From NCBI GenBank assembly GCA_013202335.1, contig JABMQR010000180.1, positions 1 through 6,991 on the forward strand: a stretch of DNA of 6,991 nt, written 5' to 3'. This DNA is from Bacteroidota bacterium. GTDB lineage: Bacteria; Spirochaetota; Spirochaetia; JABMQR01. Below the pieces are notes generated by a model. That model did no database searches, had not been told where the DNA came from, and saw only the letters and a list, made by a program, of their open reading frames with translations. This document shows positions 3 to 6,991 of the stretch, one piece after another. The stretch's first letter is position 1. Each line of letters opens with the position of its first letter. A program made the translations under genes and the position numbers.

Positions 3-290
3 CCCTTTGGCAATATTAAAAAAACTGCTAAAGGTCCAGTAGTAAAAGAAGAGAGAGAGCCCATTACTGATATTTTTGATGAAAAGAACGAAATAATTAT
101 TATGGTGGAAATGCCGGGAGTTACTGAAAATAACATAAAAATTGAGGTAATAGGAGACATCCTTGAATTATCAGCAAAAGATGGAAAAAGGAACTATCAA
201 AAAGAAATTTTACTTCCTTTAAAAGTCAAACCTGAGAACTTAAGTTCGAATTATAACAATGGGATTCTTGAAATAAAAATTAAAAAGTAG
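3..290 (+). CDS. gvpH: Hsp20/alpha-crystallin-like gas vesicle protein GvpH (5' partial, C-terminal 95 residues)
   Basis: The reading frame is open from the window edge (codon at position 3) to TAG at 288-290, so the ATG at 102 is internal and the true start lies upstream. The visible part is almost entirely an alpha-crystallin domain. It opens with PITDIFDEKNEIII, the usual first strand of Hsp20 domains, followed by the MVEMPGV segment that matches the family's LPGV motif. It closes with NNGILEIKIKK, matching the conserved NGxLxIxxxK strand. Small heat-shock proteins bind partly unfolded proteins without ATP, and GvpH is the Hsp20-like member of archaeal gvp clusters. The protein stops straight after the last core strand, so the C-terminal extension carrying the I-x-I oligomerisation motif of ordinary Hsp20s is absent. 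The Hsp20 call is firm. The GvpH name rests on the gvp genes downstream, and a general Hsp20 is the alternative. Confidence 0.82.
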   Translation, partial: PFGNIKKTAKGPVVKEEREPITDIFDEKNEIIIMVEMPGVTENNIKIEVIGDILELSAKDGKRNYQKEILLPLKVKPENLSSNYNNGILEIKIKK

Positions 291-351
291 AAATTAAATC
301 ACACTGCTCTAATTTTTTAAAGATAGAAATATGCAGGTACTGGAGTAATAG
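291..351 (+). other. 61-nt intergenic gap between gvpH and the ArsA-like gene
   Basis: This is the largest non-coding stretch in the window. It is AT-rich and contains AAATTAAAT (291-299) and a T6 run (313-318). Either could be part of a weak archaeal TATA-like element or a T-tract terminator, but neither matches a consensus well and no convincing hairpin is visible. The GGAG for the next gene lies at 342-345. It may separate gvpH from the following genes transcriptionally, or simply be a spacer in one operon. Confidence 0.3.
342..345 (+). promoter_or_regulatory. Ribosome binding site of the ArsA/Get3-like gene
   Basis: GGAG lies 6 nt before the ATG at 352. An in-frame TAA at 346-348, just after it, rules out any earlier start for this gene, so ATG 352 is well fixed. 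Confidence 0.75.
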
Positions 352-1269
352 ATGAAATTGGTTTTTTTGGGAGGAAAAGGCGGCGTAGGAAAGACTACCT
401 GTGCAGCAAGTGCAGGATTGTATTATTCCGGGAAAAACATGAAAACCTTGATCATCAGTACAGATCCAGCACATTCCTTGTCAGATAGTATTGGACAACA
501 TATAGGTAATACCATTACAGCTATAAAAGGAGTGGATAATCTATATGCTTTAGAGGTAGATGCTGAAAAAGTGCTTTCTACGTTCAAAATTGAATATGAA
601 GATGAACTCAGAACTATTTTAGATACCTCGACTTATCTGGATAAAGAAGACATTGATTCCATGTTACAGCTGTCAATGCCTGGAATGGATGAACTGATGG
701 GATTAAAGACAGTTGTTGATTTTATTGAGATAGGAAAATTTAATGTATATATTGTGGATACTGCCCCTACAGGGCATGCTCTGCACCTGTTGAATTCACC
801 TCATCTTATAGATGAATGGGTGAAGGTTATGGCAAAACTGAGATGGAAATATAGATATATGGTGAAGTCTTTTTCTGGAACCTATGTGTCAGATTCAAGT
901 GATGATTTCCTTATGATGTTAAAAAAGACTGTGAAGAAAATTGAACGACTGCTCAGGGATAACGAACAGAGTGAATTTATAGTAGTGACAAAGCCAGAAC
1001 CTATGGTAATTCTTGAAACTGAGCGGCTGGTACATAACCTGATTGAATTTGGCATCTCTATTAAACGAATAATAATTAATAATGTTGCACTGTCAGAAGG
1101 GTGTCAATTTTGTAGGGATAGAATAAAATCCCAAAAAAAATATATAGATATCATATTCGAAAAATTCAAACATCATCAAATAATAAAAGTTCCACTTCAG
1201 GCGCAGCCTGTTAGCGGGATTAGTTCACTTGAGAAGGTTAAGAATATTCTTTTCGATAAAGTGCTTTAA
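352..1269 (+). CDS. ArsA/Get3-family ATPase of the gas vesicle operon
   Basis: This is a 305-residue single-domain P-loop ATPase of the ArsA/Get3 (TRC40) class; bacterial arsenite-pump ArsA is about twice as long with two P-loop halves. Residues 7-16 (GGKGGVGKTT) form the deviant Walker A loop with signature lysine K9 and K14. Switch I is DPAHSLSDS at 38-46, with D38 matching the catalytic aspartate of Get3. DTAPTGH at 136-142 is the second switch. SMPGMDEL around 108-115 resembles the Get3 PGIDE segment. C251 and C254 form the CxxC pair that binds zinc between Get3 subunits. The helical part is methionine-rich (M104, M109, M112, M116, M160, M170, M188, M189), as in proteins that shield hydrophobic clients. 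No arsenic genes are nearby. The setting among gvp genes suggests a cytosolic role in handling a hydrophobic gas vesicle protein such as GvpA. Family assignment is firm; the client is inferred. Confidence 0.9.
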   Translation: MKLVFLGGKGGVGKTTCAASAGLYYSGKNMKTLIISTDPAHSLSDSIGQHIGNTITAIKGVDNLYALEVDAEKVLSTFKIEYEDELRTILDTSTYLDKEDIDSMLQLSMPGMDELMGLKTVVDFIEIGKFNVYIVDTAPTGHALHLLNSPHLIDEWVKVMAKLRWKYRYMVKSFSGTYVSDSSDDFLMMLKKTVKKIERLLRDNEQSEFIVVTKPEPMVILETERLVHNLIEFGISIKRIIINNVALSEGCQFCRDRIKSQKKYIDIIFEKFKHHQIIKVPLQAQPVSGISSLEKVKNILFDKVL

Positions 1270-1270
1270 G

Positions 1271-1276
1271 AGGGAG
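1271..1276 (+). promoter_or_regulatory. Ribosome binding site selecting the TTG start of the Cdc48-like gene
   Basis: AGGGAG sits 7 nt before TTG at 1284, a normal spacing. The nearest in-frame ATG at 1293 would be 16 nt away. This favours TTG as the start codon. Confidence 0.65.
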
Positions 1277-1283
1277 TTGCAAA

Positions 1284-3437
1284 TTGGCCCAAATGACCGA
1301 AAAACTAATATTGAAAGTTAAGGAATCTCTAGCAAAAGATGTAGGAAGGGCTATTGCAAGAATAGATCCTGAAAATATGACGTTACTCAAATTAAAAATC
1401 GGTGACATTGTTGAAATAGAGGGGAAAAAGAAGACTCCTGTAAGGATTATGCCTTGTTATCTTGAAGATCGCGGGCAAAGTATTATCCAAATAGATGGTT
1501 TAATCAGAGAAAATTCACAGTGTTCTATCGATGAGAAGGTAGTAATTAATACTATCAGGTATGAACTTGCCTCAGTGGTAACACTTCTGCCTTTAACATT
1601 TTCCAGTGGGCTTCAGGAGAAGGATACAAAATATATTGGGTCTCTGGTTGAAGGGCAACCGGTCGTTACCGGGAACAGAATAAGAGCTACTCTTTTTGGA
1701 TCAAAATCTTATGACTTCAAGGTAGCAGATACTTCACCAAAAGGGGTTGTGCTGATAAATAAAAATACTACAATCAGAATGGAGGAGGATACACAGAAAT
1801 CAAATGGATCTATAAGAATTTCCTATGAAGATATAGGAGGTCTCGGACCACAAATTCAGAGAATCAGGGAAATGATCGAACTGCCATTAAGATACCCGCA
1901 GGTCTTTGAACGACTGGGAATTGAACCCCCCAAAGGGGTGTTTCTTTATGGGCCTCCAGGGACAGGAAAGACCTTAATCGCACGTGCAGTAGCACATGAA
2001 ACTGATGCATATTTTACTCATATTTCAGGACCTGAAATTATTGGAAAATTCTACGGTGAAAGTGAGGAACGTCTGCGTGGAGTGTTTAAGGATGCGAAAA
2101 AGCATGCACCTTCAATAATATTTATTGATGAAATAGATGCTATTGCTCCCAAAAGAGAAGATATGGGAGGAGAAAAGCAAGTTGAAAGGCGAGTGGTAGC
2201 ACAGCTTCTATCATTGCTTGATGGATTGGAGTCCAGAGGGCAGGTAATTGTAATTGGTGCTACGAATATTCCAAATACCATAGACCCGGCATTAAGAAGA
2301 CCAGGCCGGTTTGACAGAGAAATATCTGTATCCATACCCGATAAAAATGGAAGACTGGAGATACTTCAGATTCATACAAGGGGTTTGCCTTTGGCTGATG
2401 ATGTAAGTCTGGAGAAATTATCTTTTATGACACACGGCTATGTAGGTGCCGATCTTGAATCTCTTGCAAGAGAAGCTGCGATGGCAGCCCTCAGAAAAAT
2501 ACTCCCTAAAATTGATTTTGAAATGGCTGAGATTCCCTATGAAACGTTAATGTCATTGCAAATTGTTATGGACAATTTTTATGAGGCAATGAAGGAAATT
2601 GAACCTTCAGTACTCCGGGAAGTATTTGTCGAAGTCCCGAATGTCAGATGGGATCATGTAGGAGGGTTGGAAAACATAAAAGAAGAGTTGAAAGAAGCTG
2701 TGGAATGGCCATTAAAATATGCAGAGCTCTTTAAAGTGACAAATACGAAACCATCAAAAGGAATTCTGCTCTATGGAAAACCTGGAACAGGTAAAACACT
2801 TTTAGCAAAGGCTGTTGCCAATGAGAGTGGCGTCAATTTTCTCTATGTAAAGGGTCCAGAACTAATTAATAGGTATGTCGGGGAATCTGAGCGTGGAGTA
2901 AGGGAGATTTTTAGAAAGGCAAGACAGGCTACTCCAGTAATACTTTTTCTGGATGAAATAGACAGTCTTGTACCCAAAAGAGGAGCCGGTTCATCAGATT
3001 CGCAAGTCACAGAACGGGTTATCAGCCAGATTTTAACGGAAATGGATGGCATTGAAGAGCTTAAGGGAGTTCTGGTTTTGGCGGCTACTAACAGAAAAGA
3101 TTTAATTGATCCTGCTTTATTGAGAAGTGGAAGATTTGATTTGATACTTGAATTGCCCGTACCGGATGAACAAACCAGAAAGCAGATTTTTAAGGTGCAT
3201 ACAACGAATATGGTTACAGGTCCTGATGTGGATTTTACAATGATGGCCAGAGAAACAGAAGATATGGTTGGAGCTGATATCGAATTCATTTGTCGTAAAG
3301 CTTCTTTATTTGCTATTAGAGAAATCATTGAAAACAATTCATTCGTGTCTGAGGATTTGCAAAAATGTTTTAAAGTCTCGGAAAAACATTTTAAAAAAGC
3401 AATTAACCTGGTTAAGACTCAAAATAGCATTAAGTAA
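1284..3437 (+). CDS. Cdc48/VAT-like AAA+ ATPase with two ATPase domains
   Basis: A 717-residue protein with the layout of Cdc48/p97/VAT, an ATP-driven hexameric unfoldase. The N domain (about 5-170) opens with KESLAKDVGRAIARIDP, typical of the double-psi barrel. D1 has Walker A GPPGTGKT (223-230), Walker B IIFIDEID (278-285), sensor GATN (325-328) and arginine fingers R339 and R342. D2 has Walker A GKPGTGKT (498-505), Walker B ILFLDEID (553-560), sensor AATN (600-603) and arginine fingers R614 and R617. Aromatic pore-loop residues are present in both rings (F256/Y257 and Y531), which suits substrate threading. Both ATP sites look intact; a K replaces the usual first P of the D2 P-loop. The C terminus (KTQNSIK) lacks the HbYX tail used for proteasome docking. 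The start is TTG, supported by the upstream AGGGAG. Its place between the Get3-like and GvpF/L genes suggests remodelling of gas vesicle proteins. This is not GvpN, which is a smaller single-ring MoxR-type ATPase. Confidence 0.93.
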   Translation: MAQMTEKLILKVKESLAKDVGRAIARIDPENMTLLKLKIGDIVEIEGKKKTPVRIMPCYLEDRGQSIIQIDGLIRENSQCSIDEKVVINTIRYELASVVTLLPLTFSSGLQEKDTKYIGSLVEGQPVVTGNRIRATLFGSKSYDFKVADTSPKGVVLINKNTTIRMEEDTQKSNGSIRISYEDIGGLGPQIQRIREMIELPLRYPQVFERLGIEPPKGVFLYGPPGTGKTLIARAVAHETDAYFTHISGPEIIGKFYGESEERLRGVFKDAKKHAPSIIFIDEIDAIAPKREDMGGEKQVERRVVAQLLSLLDGLESRGQVIVIGATNIPNTIDPALRRPGRFDREISVSIPDKNGRLEILQIHTRGLPLADDVSLEKLSFMTHGYVGADLESLAREAAMAALRKILPKIDFEMAEIPYETLMSLQIVMDNFYEAMKEIEPSVLREVFVEVPNVRWDHVGGLENIKEELKEAVEWPLKYAELFKVTNTKPSKGILLYGKPGTGKTLLAKAVANESGVNFLYVKGPELINRYVGESERGVREIFRKARQATPVILFLDEIDSLVPKRGAGSSDSQVTERVISQILTEMDGIEELKGVLVLAATNRKDLIDPALLRSGRFDLILELPVPDEQTRKQIFKVHTTNMVTGPDVDFTMMARETEDMVGADIEFICRKASLFAIREIIENNSFVSEDLQKCFKVSEKHFKKAINLVKTQNSIK

Positions 3438-3442
3438 TGGTT

Positions 3443-3448
3443 GGAGAG
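3443..3448 (+). promoter_or_regulatory. Ribosome binding site fixing the start of the GvpF/L-J fusion gene
   Basis: GGAGAG lies shortly before ATG 3452 (5 nt from the GGAG core). An alternative in-frame ATG at 3437 overlaps the TAA of the preceding gene (TAATG) but has no Shine-Dalgarno sequence upstream. ATG 3452 is therefore preferred, although reinitiation at 3437 cannot be excluded. Confidence 0.65.
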
Positions 3449-3451
3449 ATT

Positions 3452-4516
3452 ATGGGTGAACAAAATATGGTAAAAGAGAAAGGAAAGTATATATACGGAA
3501 TTATTCCAAAGAACCCGGATCAGAAAAACTTATCCAAGATTGGTGACGATGGGGTGTACCTGATTAGCTGCAGATATTTCTCTGCTCTGGTTACTGACTC
3601 AAAAATAGTCGATTATACCCAAATGTCAAAAGGAGTTCTTACCGAACATTTATTACTGCATCAGAAAACCATTGAGGATGCTATGAATTTGGGGAATACC
3701 ATTGTTCCTTTTAAATTGGGTACGTTTGCTAAGAATGAGCATGAGGTACAACAAATTTTACATATAAATTCTGATCTGCTAGAGGGCACAATCGAAAAAG
3801 TAACTGACAAATTTGAAATAAATGTCATTGTTGTATGGAATAACCTCCCGTCTATTCTTAATAAAATCAGTGAAGAAGAAAAGAAAATCAGTGAGCTTAA
3901 AGAAAGTCTTAAATCCAAATCAAGGCAAATGACTGAAGAGGACCAGATACAGATTGGGCGTATGGTAGAACTCGCACTTAGAGAAAAAAATAACATATAT
4001 TTCGAAAGGATATTTGATGCATTAGTGCCTGCATATCCGGATGTCAAGATTCATGAAACAGCAGTAGATCAAATTGTTTTCAATGCAACCTTTCTTCTTA
4101 ATAAACAAAATCAAGAACCTTTTGTTGAAAAACTTACTCAGTTAAGTGCTGAATTTAACGATGCATTAAATTTTAGATATATGGGTCCTCTTCCCTGTTA
4201 CAGTTTTTATTCTATTGAAGTAAAGAAGACATGTTTCTCAGAGCTGGATCAGGCAAGAAAAAAACTCAGGCTACAATATTCTGCTACGAAAGATGAGATC
4301 AAGAAAGCCTATAAAAGCATGGCTTTTTCCTTGCACCCTGACCGAAAAATTGAATCTCATGGTAGTGGTAGTGAGGAAGAATTTAACGAGATCAACAATG
4401 CCTATAAAGTACTACTTGATTATTGTTCTTATGCTAAAGTTTCTAAAAAAAGACAATATTCTTTTCTTGAGAAAGACATCAATAAAAATTCATTCTTTAT
4501 AAAACTCAGGAGTTGA
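3452..4516 (+). CDS. gvpF/L: GvpF/GvpL-family gas vesicle protein fused to a C-terminal J domain
   Basis: A 354-residue protein from ATG 3452 (359 from ATG 3437). Residues about 7-258 form a complete GvpF/L domain: GKYIYGII near the start, IVPFKLGTF (84-92, the family's LPVRFGT position), an acidic/basic helical stretch likely to be coiled coil (about 138-180), and FRYMGPLPCYSF (242-253), the late GP-x-P-x-Y-x-F signature. Residues about 262-328 form a J domain: helix II SATKDEIKKAYKSMAF, the HPD motif at 295-297 inside SLHPDRK, and helix III EEEFNEINNAYKVLLDY. J domains stimulate ATP hydrolysis by Hsp70/DnaK and deliver clients to it. GvpF/L proteins usually end soon after their GP-P-Y-F motif at about 210-270 residues, so this is an extended fusion. 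No stop or frameshift separates the two parts. It probably tethers DnaK to early gas vesicle assembly; this is inferred. Both domains are clearly recognisable. Confidence 0.9.
   Translation: MGEQNMVKEKGKYIYGIIPKNPDQKNLSKIGDDGVYLISCRYFSALVTDSKIVDYTQMSKGVLTEHLLLHQKTIEDAMNLGNTIVPFKLGTFAKNEHEVQQILHINSDLLEGTIEKVTDKFEINVIVVWNNLPSILNKISEEEKKISELKESLKSKSRQMTEEDQIQIGRMVELALREKNNIYFERIFDALVPAYPDVKIHETAVDQIVFNATFLLNKQNQEPFVEKLTQLSAEFNDALNFRYMGPLPCYSFYSIEVKKTCFSELDQARKKLRLQYSATKDEIKKAYKSMAFSLHPDRKIESHGSGSEEEFNEINNAYKVLLDYCSYAKVSKKRQYSFLEKDINKNSFFIKLRS
4268..4436 (+). other. J-domain coding segment (HPD motif) within the GvpF/L fusion
   Basis: This segment encodes the C-terminal J domain of the gene at 3452-4516. 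The HPD tripeptide is encoded at 4334-4342. The Lys-rich helix II before it and the EIxxAYxVL helix III after it are in the canonical order. The boundaries are estimated by eye. There is no Gly/Phe-rich region or zinc finger, so it is a J-domain-only (type III) attachment and not a full DnaJ. Confidence 0.85.
4508..4512 (+). promoter_or_regulatory. Ribosome binding site of the second GvpF/L gene
   Basis: AGGAG lies 5 nt before ATG 4518, inside the last codons of the preceding gene, whose TGA is at 4514-4516. The two genes are thus separated by one base and are probably translationally coupled. Confidence 0.75.
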
Positions 4517-4517
4517 T

Positions 4518-5285
4518 ATGGAAAATGAAGGGAAATACATCTATTGCATTATTCCTACTAAGCATGACAGAAAATTCGGCCCAATAGGAATAGGCGGGAG
4601 AGGTGATGAAGTTATGACCATAGGATATGAAGGTCTTGCAGTGGTAGCAAGCAGTCATCCCATGTCAAAATTTGTGGTAAATCGGGAAAATTTGTTGGCT
4701 CATGAAACAGTGATTGAAGAAGTTATGAAGGAGTATGAAAGTGTTCTCCCTGTCAGATTTGGTACAATTGCAACTACCACTGATGTAATAAGCAATCTAC
4801 TTATCAGGAGATACCGAGAACTCAATAATCTTTCTTTGGAAATGAGAAATCTTATTGAATTAGGAGTAAAAGGGATATGGACAAATATGAGTATGATTTT
4901 CAAAGAGATTGAAGAATCCAATAACAATATAAAAATAGAGGTGGAAAGGGTGCGAGACCTCGGGGGGAAAGATAGTAAGACGATAGAGAAAATTGGAAAA
5001 ATGATAAAAGATGCACTGCCAAGTAAAAAAAATGAAGAAACAGAAAGGATAGTTGAAGTGTTAAAAGAGGCATCATATGATTACAGAGTGAACAGTACTT
5101 CAGGTGATGAGTATTTTATGAATGGTGCGTTTCTGATTTCCAAAGGAAGGGAGAAAGAATTTGATAATCTCATGGATGATTTATGTAAAGAATATGACAG
5201 CAGGATAAGATTTAAATATACTGGCCCGCTTCCTGTTTATAATTTTATGAACATTGCCATATATCCTGAAGAATGGGAAAAGTAA
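4518..5285 (+). CDS. gvpF/L: GvpF/GvpL-family gas vesicle protein (second paralog)
   Basis: A 255-residue protein of normal length for GvpF/L, with the standard features in order. The N terminus is MENEGKYIYCIIP. GYEGLAVVASSHP at 36-48 is the strand pair ending the first subdomain. ENLLAHETVIEEVM at 57-70 and LPVRFGTI at 77-84 match the family's conserved helix and strand. A polar helical stretch runs through about 120-180, with MNGAFLISKG at 201-210, and the closing signature FKYTGPLPVYNF sits at 232-243. GvpF/L proteins are cytosolic accessory proteins and minor vesicle components; halophile studies place them with GvpA early in assembly. The start is supported by AGGAG 5 nt upstream. It begins one base after the J-fusion gene and ends one base before the next paralog. 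Of the GvpF/L genes here it keeps the signature motifs best. Whether it corresponds to F or L of haloarchaea cannot be decided by eye. Confidence 0.93.
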   Translation: MENEGKYIYCIIPTKHDRKFGPIGIGGRGDEVMTIGYEGLAVVASSHPMSKFVVNRENLLAHETVIEEVMKEYESVLPVRFGTIATTTDVISNLLIRRYRELNNLSLEMRNLIELGVKGIWTNMSMIFKEIEESNNNIKIEVERVRDLGGKDSKTIEKIGKMIKDALPSKKNEETERIVEVLKEASYDYRVNSTSGDEYFMNGAFLISKGREKEFDNLMDDLCKEYDSRIRFKYTGPLPVYNFMNIAIYPEEWEK

Positions 5286-5286
5286 C

Positions 5287-6045
5287 ATGATAGATATAGA
5301 GAATGAGGGGAAGTACATTTATTGTATTATAGCATCTGAATTTTCCAGAGAATTTGATATCTCCGGTATTGGAGAAAGGGGTGATACTGTTTACAGTATT
5401 TGCACTAATGGAATTGCAGCAGTTGTAAGCACCGCTCCTTTAAAGAAATACAAAACTTCAAGAGAAAATCTCATGACACATGAAAAAGTTATTGAGGAAG
5501 TCATGAGAAACCACACGACCCTGCCTGTAAGATTTGCAACAGTTGCAAAGCATGAGGATAGAGTGAGAGAAATACTTTGTAAGGATACTGCCCAATTCAA
5601 GGACCTACTGGCAAAGTTTGATAATAAAAAGGAATATGGACTAAAAGTTATCTTTCGAGAAGATGTCATTTATAATCATATTCTTGAAAAATATGAGGAA
5701 TTGAAAAAATTAAAGAAAATAATACTTACTTTACCGTCTGAAAAAAGTCATTATCAGCGGATGAAAATAGGAGAAATGGTTGAATCTGCTTTAAAGAAAG
5801 AAGTTGAGTTGTTAAGGGATGAAATTCTCAAGATACTTTCCCCTTTGGCGGTGGAAGTCAAAATGAATAGTACTTTTTGGGAAGTGATGGTGATAAACGC
5901 AGCTTTTTTAGTCGAGAATGATCATTTGGAAGATTTTGACTGTAAAATTGAAGATATCAATACAAAATATGGTGAATTGGTTAGAATTAAATATGTTACT
6001 GTGGTACCACCGTTTAATTTTGTCAATTTAAGGATTCAGGTATAG
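5287..6045 (+). CDS. gvpF/L: GvpF/GvpL-family gas vesicle protein (third paralog)
   Basis: A 252-residue protein starting at ATG 5287, one base after the previous stop (TAA C ATG). The N terminus MIDIENEGKYIYCIIA aligns with its upstream neighbour. A TTG at 5254 would add 11 residues with no counterpart in that neighbour, so I rejected it. Conserved blocks are NGIAAVVSTAPL (41-52), ENLMTHEKVIEEVM (60-73), TLPVRFATVA (78-87), a charged helical middle (about 130-180) and VINAAFLVEND (202-212). The closing motif is altered: KYVTVVPPFNF (235-245) where the family has Y-x-GP-x-P-x-Y-N-F, so the Gly-Pro pair is lost while PP and F-N-F remain. There is no clear Shine-Dalgarno sequence, only GGGAAAAG close upstream, so reinitiation by ribosomes finishing the previous gene is likely. 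The role is probably as for other GvpF/L proteins; the altered motif hints at a specialised one. Confidence 0.9.
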   Translation: MIDIENEGKYIYCIIASEFSREFDISGIGERGDTVYSICTNGIAAVVSTAPLKKYKTSRENLMTHEKVIEEVMRNHTTLPVRFATVAKHEDRVREILCKDTAQFKDLLAKFDNKKEYGLKVIFREDVIYNHILEKYEELKKLKKIILTLPSEKSHYQRMKIGEMVESALKKEVELLRDEILKILSPLAVEVKMNSTFWEVMVINAAFLVENDHLEDFDCKIEDINTKYGELVRIKYVTVVPPFNFVNLRIQV

Positions 6046-6054
6046 GAAACTTTT

Positions 6055-6267
6055 ATGGTAATAATTAAAGGGGTAATCTGGCTGGCAAAAAAAATTAATG
6101 AGGTGGCAGAAAATGAGTTTTCAGGCCGGGGTTCAATAAAAGAAAAGCTTATGGAACTGCAACTGCGTTATGAATTAGATTTAATAAGTGAAGAGGAATA
6201 TATTGCACAAGAAAGTGAATTGCTTGAGCGATTAAATATAGGTGAAAATGATGAGGATGAAGAATGA
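6055..6267 (+). CDS. gvpG: Gas vesicle protein GvpG
   Basis: A small 70-residue protein with the GvpG family pattern. A short hydrophobic amphipathic start, KGVIWLAKKINEVAENEF (residues 5-22), matches the PVKGPLWVLRKIAEQAE-like opening of known GvpG proteins. A helical segment follows, SIKEKLMELQLRYELDLISEEEY (27-49), with the characteristic L-x-x-L-x-x-x-Y-E-x-x-x-I-S-E-E-E-Y core. The tail ENDEDEE is strongly acidic. The hydrophobic leader before KG is shorter than in many GvpGs. ATG 6055 is the first possible start after the upstream stop, with AGGA at 6044-6047 seven bases before it, overlapping that stop. GvpG is an essential accessory protein in studied systems and is nearly always next to gvpF/L, as here. 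No membrane helix or signal peptide is evident. Confidence 0.9.
   Translation: MVIIKGVIWLAKKINEVAENEFSGRGSIKEKLMELQLRYELDLISEEEYIAQESELLERLNIGENDEDEE
6253..6257 (+). promoter_or_regulatory. Ribosome binding site of the fourth GvpF/L gene, inside the gvpG acidic tail codons
   Basis: GAGGA lies 6 nt before ATG 6264. It is formed by the Glu and Asp codons of the gvpG C terminus. The ATG overlaps the gvpG stop as ATGA (6264-6267), a classic coupling arrangement. Confidence 0.65.
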
Positions 6268-6991
6268 ATACGGATGCTAGCTACCTGTATGTATACTGTG
6301 TCACGAAAGAACCTCCCAAGCTTGCAAATCTTACTGATCTAGTAGAATCTATCGATTTTCTTCAGTTCGGGAATCTTTATGTAACAATCGGTTATGTTGA
6401 TAAAGATGATTTTACTCAGGAAATCCTGAAAAAGAATCTACAGAACCTTGAGTGGGTGAGTAAGTATGTGATAATCCATGAAAAAGTAATAGAAACTGTT
6501 ATGAAGGATACTCCCGTGATTCCTTCCCAATTTGCTACAGTTTTTATTGATAAGAAAAACCTGGAAGGTTTTATAGATAAACATGCTATTCATCTAGAGG
6601 GAAAACTCATCTATTTGGAGGGAAAAGAAGAGTGGGGCGTAAAGATTTATTGTGATGTTGAGATTTTAAGAAATGTTAGCAAAGTATCTGATAGTATACT
6701 GCTGCTTGATCATGAGATTAATATATCTTCCGTTGGAAAAGCATATCTATTAAAAAAGAAAAAAACTGAAATACTTCAAGAGTTAGTTGATGAAACTATT
6801 TCAACGTACAGAACTTTATTTCGAGATAAGTTGGCAGAACATAGCTTTGATACACAGATAAATGAATTGCACAAAGAATCATTGAAGGAGAAAAATGATG
6901 AAATGATTCTGAATGCTGCTTTTCTTGTGGGTAAAAGTGATGTTGGAAATTTTGTTACGGAGGTGGAAATTCTTAAGAAGGATTATAATTC
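6264..6991 (+). CDS. gvpF/L: GvpF/GvpL-family gas vesicle protein, divergent fourth paralog (3' partial)
   Basis: An open frame from ATG 6264 to the window edge gives 242 complete codons and two extra bases without a stop. The start MNTDASYLYVYCVTKEPP corresponds to the KYIYCII strand of the other paralogs but lacks their ENEGK lead-in. Family marks are FGNLYVTIGYV (35-45), a helix ending IHEKVIETVM (71-80), the VIPSQFATVF block (85-94, equal to LPVRFGT), WGVKIY (124-129) and ILNAAFLVGKSDVGNF (215-230). The closing GP-P-Y-F motif would lie just beyond the window. A Lys-rich stretch KKKK at 164-167 is unusual. It overlaps gvpG by 4 nt (ATGA). The family call is good. It is clearly more diverged than the three upstream copies and may take the GvpL-like or another non-redundant role. 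Confidence 0.85.
   Translation, partial: MNTDASYLYVYCVTKEPPKLANLTDLVESIDFLQFGNLYVTIGYVDKDDFTQEILKKNLQNLEWVSKYVIIHEKVIETVMKDTPVIPSQFATVFIDKKNLEGFIDKHAIHLEGKLIYLEGKEEWGVKIYCDVEILRNVSKVSDSILLLDHEINISSVGKAYLLKKKKTEILQELVDETISTYRTLFRDKLAEHSFDTQINELHKESLKEKNDEMILNAAFLVGKSDVGNFVTEVEILKKDYN

Follow-up and report, generated by a model that had tools for sequence, protein, structure and literature searches.

Gene content and conserved order of the window

The window analyzed here, a stretch of 6,991 nucleotides (positions 1 to 6,991 of contig JABMQR010000180.1, assembly GCA_013202335.1, from a bacterium placed in Spirochaetota), carries gas vesicle (gvp) genes together with genes for several families of chaperones and unfoldases. 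According to the list of open reading frames (ORFs) and to scans with Pfam and NCBIfam profiles, it is filled by eight co-oriented, nearly touching genes, all on the plus strand, in the order Hsp20 (GvpH), ArsA/Get3-like ATPase, Cdc48, GvpF/L with a C-terminal DnaJ domain, GvpF/L, GvpF/L, GvpG and GvpF/L. The intergenic gaps among the first five genes are 61, 14, -1 and 1 bases. Genes are cut at both ends of the window, and gvpA and gvpN are not among the eight. The features are as follows:

3-290, plus strand: Hsp20, probably GvpH, 5' end cut by the window (PF00011, 37.4 bits)
352-1269, plus strand: single-domain ArsA/Get3-like ATPase (PF02374, E 4e-80; TIGR00345, 262 bits, cut-off 135)
1284-3437, plus strand: Cdc48/VAT-type unfoldase with N domain, D1 and D2 (TIGR01243, 925.5 bits, cut-off 802.65)
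3437-4516, plus strand: GvpF/L with a C-terminal J domain, one protein (PF06386, 174 bits; PF00226, 47.3 bits, cut-off 27.8)
4232-4435, plus strand: stretch coding for the J domain, approximately residues 266-333 of the fusion (from the PF00226 match at 277-328 and the AlphaFold2 helices)
4518-5285, plus strand: GvpF/L paralogue 2 (PF06386, 176.6 bits)
5287-6045, plus strand: GvpF/L paralogue 3 (PF06386, 210.7 bits)
6055-6267, plus strand: GvpG (PF05120, 63.5 bits)
6264-6989, plus strand: GvpF/L paralogue 4, 3' end cut by the window (PF06386, 128.2 bits)

An earlier note on this DNA had described four protein quality control types side by side, followed directly by GvpF/L and GvpG genes. All four are present there, and the GvpF/L and GvpG genes do come next (4518-6989, plus strand), but the J domain is part of a GvpF/L protein: the single ORF 3437-4516 matches both PF06386 and PF00226, which rules out a separate J-domain gene. 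We consider it probable that the Hsp20, the Get3-like ATPase, Cdc48 and the GvpF-J fusion (hereafter GvpF::J) serve gas vesicle biogenesis by acting on the small hydrophobic shell proteins of the GvpA family, a judgment that jointly covers the view of the window as the chaperone-bearing middle part of a bacterial gas vesicle operon. The observations themselves are the gene content and order, their conservation, the association with gvp genes, the fusion, the intact motifs and the separate clade formed by Hsp70s encoded in related clusters.

Four relatives of the locus were found by scanning genome contigs with the ArsA-like protein of the window. Two of them, L001 and L002 (from metagenome-assembled genomes labelled Nitrospira and Syntrophaceae), have the order Hsp20-ArsA-Cdc48-GvpF::J-GvpF-GvpF-GvpG-GvpL, with extra genes between Cdc48 and GvpF::J; L003 (labelled Bacteroidetes) has the first three genes and the start of a GvpF gene before the contig ends, and in L004 (Celaenobacter) the Hsp20-ArsA pair is present and the contig ends inside ArsA. 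Because the same genes recur in the same order in related loci, the arrangement is more than chance and, as the comparison of gene order called for by the earlier note shows, is not limited to this genome. Together with the association between Cdc48 and gvp genes described below, this rules out a chance or single-genome arrangement.

Components encoded in the window

The Hsp20 of the window scores below the cut-off of the archaeal Hsp20 family NF041800 (113.5 against 140 bits), and its 5'-truncated copy gave no match to the Pfam GvpH family PF05455 in the Pfam scan. Full-length relatives of 176 aa are found in L001, L002 and L004, and since the one in L001 (358-885) just passes PF05455 (22.3 bits, cut-off 22), the window Hsp20 is probably GvpH. 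It shares with the Hsp20-like GvpH of haloarchaea the location among gvp genes but differs in being bacterial, in being followed by ArsA and Cdc48 genes, and in the borderline PF05455 score of its relative. An ORF of approximately 100 aa, coiled-coil-like by eye, recurs between gvpN and Hsp20 where both are visible (L002:8941-9246, L003:154-459, L004:7069-7419 and L067:5440-5751).

The ArsA/Get3-like protein (305 aa) contains GKGGVGKTT, DPAHSLSD and DTAPTGHA, which we take to be the P-loop, switch I and switch II, respectively, as well as a CxxC motif (CQFC). Its TIGR00345 score is well above the curated cut-off of the TRC40/GET3/ArsA family, and among solved structures it matches the archaeal protein 3ug6 (E 2.9e-54) and yeast Get3 (2woj, E 6.7e-41). 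The P-loop, both switches and CxxC could be aligned in the window protein and 12 cluster copies; CxxC is present in 12 of these 13, the remaining copy ending earlier, and in the window protein it occupies the position homologous to that in 3ug6. The sequence similarity to Get3/TRC40 (3ug6, 3zq6 and yeast Get3) thus comprises whole-length homology and all these motifs, whereas the location among gas vesicle genes sets the window protein apart. An arsenic pump subunit was rejected, as the protein has one domain instead of two and scores 115.9 bits against the cut-off of 650 for the ArsA equivalog TIGR04291.

Cdc48 belongs to the CDC48 family by its domains, namely PF02359 (N domain), PF02933 (domain 2) and two copies of PF00004, with Walker A and B motifs intact in both AAA rings and with pore motifs. 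Its N domain, two AAA modules, Walker motifs and TIGR01243 score above the cut-off are those of Cdc48/VAT/p97, from which it differs in being bacterial and adjoining gvp genes.

In the 359-aa GvpF/L protein, the J domain is C-terminal, with the PF00226 match at residues 277-328 and an intact HPD motif at 300-302. In the AlphaFold2 model (mean pLDDT 87.9), J-domain helices are predicted at 267-276, 285-299 and 311-332, and the HPD lies between helices II (285-299) and III (311-332), consistent with a J-domain fold. A Foldseek search with the model matched GvpF crystal structures (6l5d, E 1.3e-14), as expected of a GvpF/GvpL protein; a short part of it matched many J domains, with a probability of 1.00 for most but E values of 0.014 or worse, and by sequence the best match of the J part to a solved J domain has an E value of 1.8e-6. 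A protein search gave 40 homologues, with source-given names that include Schekmanbacteria and Elusimicrobiota; 37 of the 40, counting that of the window, have both Pfam domains and all 37 contain HPD, which is invariant at the J site in the 36 that were aligned (the short P0032 was left out). The J domains of two genomes with an additional Hsp70 discussed below, G406 and G571, both have HPD as well. GvpF::J is best read as a candidate client-specific Hsp40 within a gas-vesicle chaperone set.

Auxilin-like class C J-domain proteins consist of a client-binding part followed by a C-terminal J domain. GvpF::J has the same layout, with an HPD-containing J domain on the C-terminal side of the client-binding part. 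The main competing explanation, which we regard as unlikely, envisages a turnover machine in which an auxilin-like GvpF::J calls Hsp70 and Cdc48 to strip and take apart gas vesicles that have collapsed or are no longer wanted, so that GvpA can be reused. Cdc48, with Walker motifs intact in both rings, comes from an unfoldase family, and disassembly was also proposed in the earlier note; however, the J domain is borne by GvpF, which the excerpted text of PMC11445434 reports to be the primary, possibly cotranslational partner of GvpA2, and the genes form a single co-oriented series with those for gvp assembly. The client part of the fusion is GvpF/L, unlike in auxilin, and assembly appears to be a likelier task than removal of a coat.

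Two chimeric ORFs involve the components described above. In G422, Hsp20 continues in frame into GvpF-J (L068:1199-2608), and in G520, Cdc48 continues in frame into GvpF (L078:5075-7753). Each may be a natural fusion, but deletion or misassembly is as likely because each is a single case in which parts of both genes are gone.

Chaperone genes across gas vesicle loci

PF06386 (GvpL/F) was detected in 17 of 295 genomes in the phylum of L001, 25 of 297 in the phylum of L002 (above the cut-off, with one more below), 3 of 124 in the phylum of L004 and 1 of 164 in the order of L003. The loci of 48 genomes, that is, 46 PF06386-positive ones plus G003 and G004, were mapped with purpose-built profiles, and the duplicate locus L053 (the same as L003) was excluded from the neighbor and content counts. 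Cdc48 was found in the loci of 31 of these genomes, Hsp20 in 35, GvpN in 28, whole GvpF::J in 20, a long ArsA in 15, a single-domain ArsA in 13, a DnaJ-type zinc finger in 13 and Hsp70 in 8; three genomes have J fragments or a chimera, and one of the three (G496) also has a whole fusion. All 20 genomes with whole GvpF::J also have Cdc48. In none of the genomes do the loci examined contain both ArsA forms, the long ArsA of G247 being located on another contig outside those loci. Many contigs are short, and a few were entered by their Cdc48 or ArsA match itself: the Cdc48 contigs of G304 and G584 otherwise carry only Hsp20 (and ArsA), the Cdc48-gvp link in G496 depends on a 194-aa piece of Cdc48, and the long ArsA genes of G571, G406 and G277 are on stretches with no other recognized gvp gene. 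Cdc48 shares its contig with a gvp gene other than Hsp20 in 29 of the 31 genomes.

Among the 22 well-recovered genomes (those with gvpN, gvpG and at least two gvpF genes), Cdc48 is present in all 22 (in 21 on a contig also bearing a gvp gene), as is Hsp20, whereas ArsA was found in 17 (8 single-domain and 9 long; 16 without G571), GvpF::J in 14, the zinc finger in 8 and Hsp70 in 4. The four types named in the earlier note are thus conserved and co-oriented in gvp clusters of several phyla, but the dedicated hand-off line that it proposed has to be qualified: the set is modular, with J missing from 8 of these 22 genomes and ArsA from 5 (6 without G571). The presence of GvpN, an AAA+ ATPase for vesicle enlargement, in the loci of 28 of the 48 genomes, together with the 2010 proposal that ArsA energizes a biogenic step (PMC2963123, in part), would also fit a scheme in which the energy for shell insertion comes from Cdc48 and the Get3-like ATPase, or these two work with GvpN in the control of size and shape, rather than in quality control. 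We consider this quite unlikely given that the neighboring Hsp20 and J domain and, in some loci, Hsp70 and a DnaJ-type zinc finger point to chaperone work.

Cdc48 is associated with gvp genes. In the first sample (the phylum of the L001 genome), it was found in 11 of 17 gvp-positive and 1 of 278 gvp-negative genomes (Fisher p 4.8e-15), and in the second (the phylum of the L002 genome), in 20 of 25 and 13 of 272, respectively (Fisher p 4.0e-18; neither value is corrected for kinship). Among the genomes with both, Cdc48 is on a gvp-bearing contig in 10 of 11 (not in G207) and in 17 of 20 (not in G333, and beside Hsp20 only in G304 and G584). Three candidates per genome were scored; with up to 17, the same 31 gvp-positive genomes had Cdc48. 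For the window and the 31 genomes taken together (n = 32), the next recognized gene upstream of Cdc48 is Hsp20 in 14 cases, ArsA in 13 and GvpF in one, with none on the contig in 4; downstream it is GvpF or GvpF-J in 26 and another gene in 4, with none in 2. The 708-aa ORF of G571 is what remains of a Cdc48 match with an internal stop. A search with the proteasome profile PF00227 gave matches in 30 of 31 genomes (three in G030), but also in the Escherichia coli and Bacillus subtilis controls; these are probably HslV or similar proteins. Proteins of approximately 200 aa are encoded near Cdc48 or at the end of the gvp cluster in L002 (13253-13873), L067 (15356-16069), L086 (6936-7628) and L139 (5396-5977); their N-termini are alike by eye in the first three, and those of L002 and L139 have a weak TraB match.

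On haloarchaeal plasmids, Hsp20 is encoded directly upstream of Cdc48 in stretches with no annotated gvp gene (L137:7558-10208 and L138:3750-6259). As the pair occurs away from gvp genes, it may be older than its use in gas vesicle clusters. These pairs and the Cdc48 genes of the 13 gvp-negative genomes in the second sample are compatible with general stress genes merely riding in the gvp operon, perhaps for co-regulation. Such an explanation seems very unlikely because the J domain is fused to GvpF, because Cdc48-positive genomes (12 of 295 and 33 of 297) are gvp-positive in 11 of 12 and 20 of 33 cases, against just 17 of 295 and 25 of 297 among all genomes, and because the Hsp70s of the clusters form a separate clade and occur alongside a general DnaK in the five genomes examined.

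Eight gvp contigs encode such an Hsp70. In G571, G417, G406, G593 and G388 it is additional to another Hsp70; those of G518, G370 and G529 come from the scan of the loci. The Hsp70 genes are at:

L067:12644-14476
L080:1619-3325
L065:1370-3055
L086:11356-13065
L062:4253-5716
L060:5053-6909
L079:5177-6898
L077:2144-4036

The eight proteins form one clade (support 95/93), distinct from 18 further Hsp70s belonging to 11 of the genomes; in the five genomes compared, they share 46-52% identity with the general DnaK encoded in the same genome. The interdomain linker L-(V/I)-D-V is retained in all eight, and the three that were scanned pass NF001413 (648) but fall below TIGR02350 (822.55). The G388 protein is short (487 aa), and a stop lies inside the matches of G593 and G406, in which ORFs of 569 and 561 aa remain. 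In five of the eight, the nearest gvpA-family gene overlaps the Hsp70 gene or is no more than 19 bases away, and several are followed by another Hsp20 and a long ArsA. GvpF::J is present in the source genomes of five of the eight; in the other three, the contigs examined do not span the Cdc48/GvpF::J part. The delivery step from the J domain to DnaK, suggested in the earlier note, gains independent support from these eight Hsp70s of a separate clade.

The DnaJ-type zinc-finger proteins in the loci of 13 of the 48 genomes are small CxxCxGxG proteins, with examples at:

L004:5389-5724
L004:7438-7839
also in L037, L055, L071, L076 and others

Six CxxCxGxG motifs are present in 13 of the 21 small ORFs and gvpN is a neighbor of 17; the two that were scanned both exceed the cut-off of Pfam DnaJ_CXXCXGXG (PF00684). 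It is a tentative possibility, a little short of an even chance, that many bacteria possess a private gas-vesicle foldase line consisting of GvpF::J as the Hsp40, the zinc fingers, mostly six-motif and mostly beside gvpN, as the other part of a "split DnaJ", an Hsp70 in some lineages, and ATPases of the Get3 and Cdc48 types. If so, the gas vesicle would be a protein organelle served by an almost complete chaperone network of its own.

Predicted roles in gas vesicle biogenesis

The published background is cited here from excerpts of the respective papers. ArsA homologs and hsp20 in gvp clusters (gvpFGJKLMN) were published in 2010, with a proposed role in gas vesicle biogenesis (PMC2963123); the ArsA proteins of those clusters (Cluster 4 and Cluster 6) are two-domain proteins of 637 and 645 aa on average, unlike the single-domain protein of the window. 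A J fusion or Hsp70 does not appear in the excerpts of that paper. "Cdc48" is absent from its main text and is mentioned in one gas vesicle paper as a Ni-column contaminant (PMC6107691). Judging by titles and the openings of abstracts, none of the matches listed reports Cdc48, a J fusion or Hsp70 in gvp clusters, with subscription journals and preprints mostly outside the coverage. Hence the ArsA and Hsp20 part of the operon was already known, and Cdc48, the J fusion and Hsp70 are apparently little reported. GvpF has been described as the primary GvpA2 partner that is later superseded by GvpG and is called chaperone-like by the authors (PMC11445434, 2024), and it was the only Gvp protein that bound GvpA in split-GFP experiments (PMC9501494, a review by Pfeifer). 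GvpH prevents aggregation of GvpM (PMC9501494, PMC6107691), GvpN is required for vesicle enlargement (PMC9501494, PMC11445434), and the shell protein aggregates even in SDS (PMC11445434). In one screen, only five named clusters gave detectable gas vesicles in E. coli (PMC10344784). Solubility and insertion of the aggregating shell protein are an open problem, for which a conserved, compact chaperone set offers direct candidates.

In the biogenesis role that we favor, nascent GvpA/J/S would be held by GvpH (Hsp20) and GvpF, and a dimer of the Get3-like ATPase would cover the hydrophobic face of these proteins. Hsp70, either the general DnaK or, in some clusters, the Hsp70 of the operon itself, would be recruited by the J domain on GvpF, which would also trigger the Hsp70 ATPase; since the J domain is on GvpF, Hsp70 could act exactly where the client is held. 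GvpF might then pass the client on to GvpG and the growing vesicle, and Cdc48 might pull apart stalled GvpF-client complexes or misassembled subunits. We infer the identity of the client, the order of the steps, the role of Cdc48 and the preference for assembly over dismantling from what is known of these families. If correct, this would be a case in bacteria where proteins of the Get3, Hsp70/Hsp40 and Cdc48 types converge on a single class of hydrophobic clients.

Several observations weigh against this role. In the loci examined, 17 of the 48 genomes lack Cdc48, many of them on short contigs, the phyla were picked from matches to the window ArsA, and related genomes are not independent. Cdc48 also occurs apart from gas vesicles, as 13 of the 33 Cdc48-positive genomes of the second sample are gvp-negative. 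The gvp-type Cdc48s do not form one clade in the second of two trees (2 changes; a single clade in 4% of bootstraps), although a single clade is not rejected (p-AU 0.40). The first tree comprised 67 rows, of which 31 were gvp and 14 non-gvp sequences; the remaining 22 came from 107 unplaced homologs, which were what was left of 120 listed once near-copies, a long row and a short one had been taken out. The second left out these 22, the partial G038, G496 and G584, and the long G333, and took in two gvp, four archaeal and three alphaproteobacterial plasmid rows. A J domain is present without any Cdc48 match in the genome in G422 (the chimera) and G666 (a fragment). An Hsp70 match was found in 33 of the 34 genomes of relatives searched, and the genome search of G002, which has GvpF::J, gave none. 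Among named records, for which the plasmid gene tables used are incomplete, the stretch of Octadecabacter arcticus 238 has no ArsA or Cdc48 although J is present, and those of Halobacterium PHS3, Kitasatospora and Spartinivicinus have no annotated ArsA, Cdc48 or J gene. Because these last three clusters lack such annotations, the chaperone set is not required for gas vesicles in general. In PHS3, CDC48 is located approximately 20 kb or more from the gvp cluster.

Counterparts are nevertheless available in complete plasmid records of Methylocella tundrae, Methylosinus sp. C49, Nostoc sphaeroides and O. arcticus. In M. tundrae p1 and in pMSC49b of Methylosinus sp. C49, the last genes of the gvp cluster are Hsp20/gvpH, a hypothetical gene and CDC48, and O. 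arcticus 238 encodes a GvpF with an HPD-containing J domain (28.0 bits, cut-off 27.8) along with Hsp20. On N. sphaeroides p4, the cluster closes with a 634-aa ArsA and a 613-aa double AAA ATPase of the Cdc48 type (L164:11743-13584) that matches the window Cdc48 (48.5%) only from residue 180 and has no Cdc48 N domain. Its N-terminus is GvpH-like (17.7 bits against 5.9 for the best of 2000 shuffles, a similarity noticed post hoc); GvpH was not among the 25 of 57 Pfam matches listed for this protein.

Finally, genes for two-component sensors and response regulators are located beside or inside gvp clusters in L002 (719-5315), L004 (364-3119), L067 (1157-2542) and L060 (3366-5005), identified by NCBIfam in L060 and by eye in the other three, which suggests signal control.

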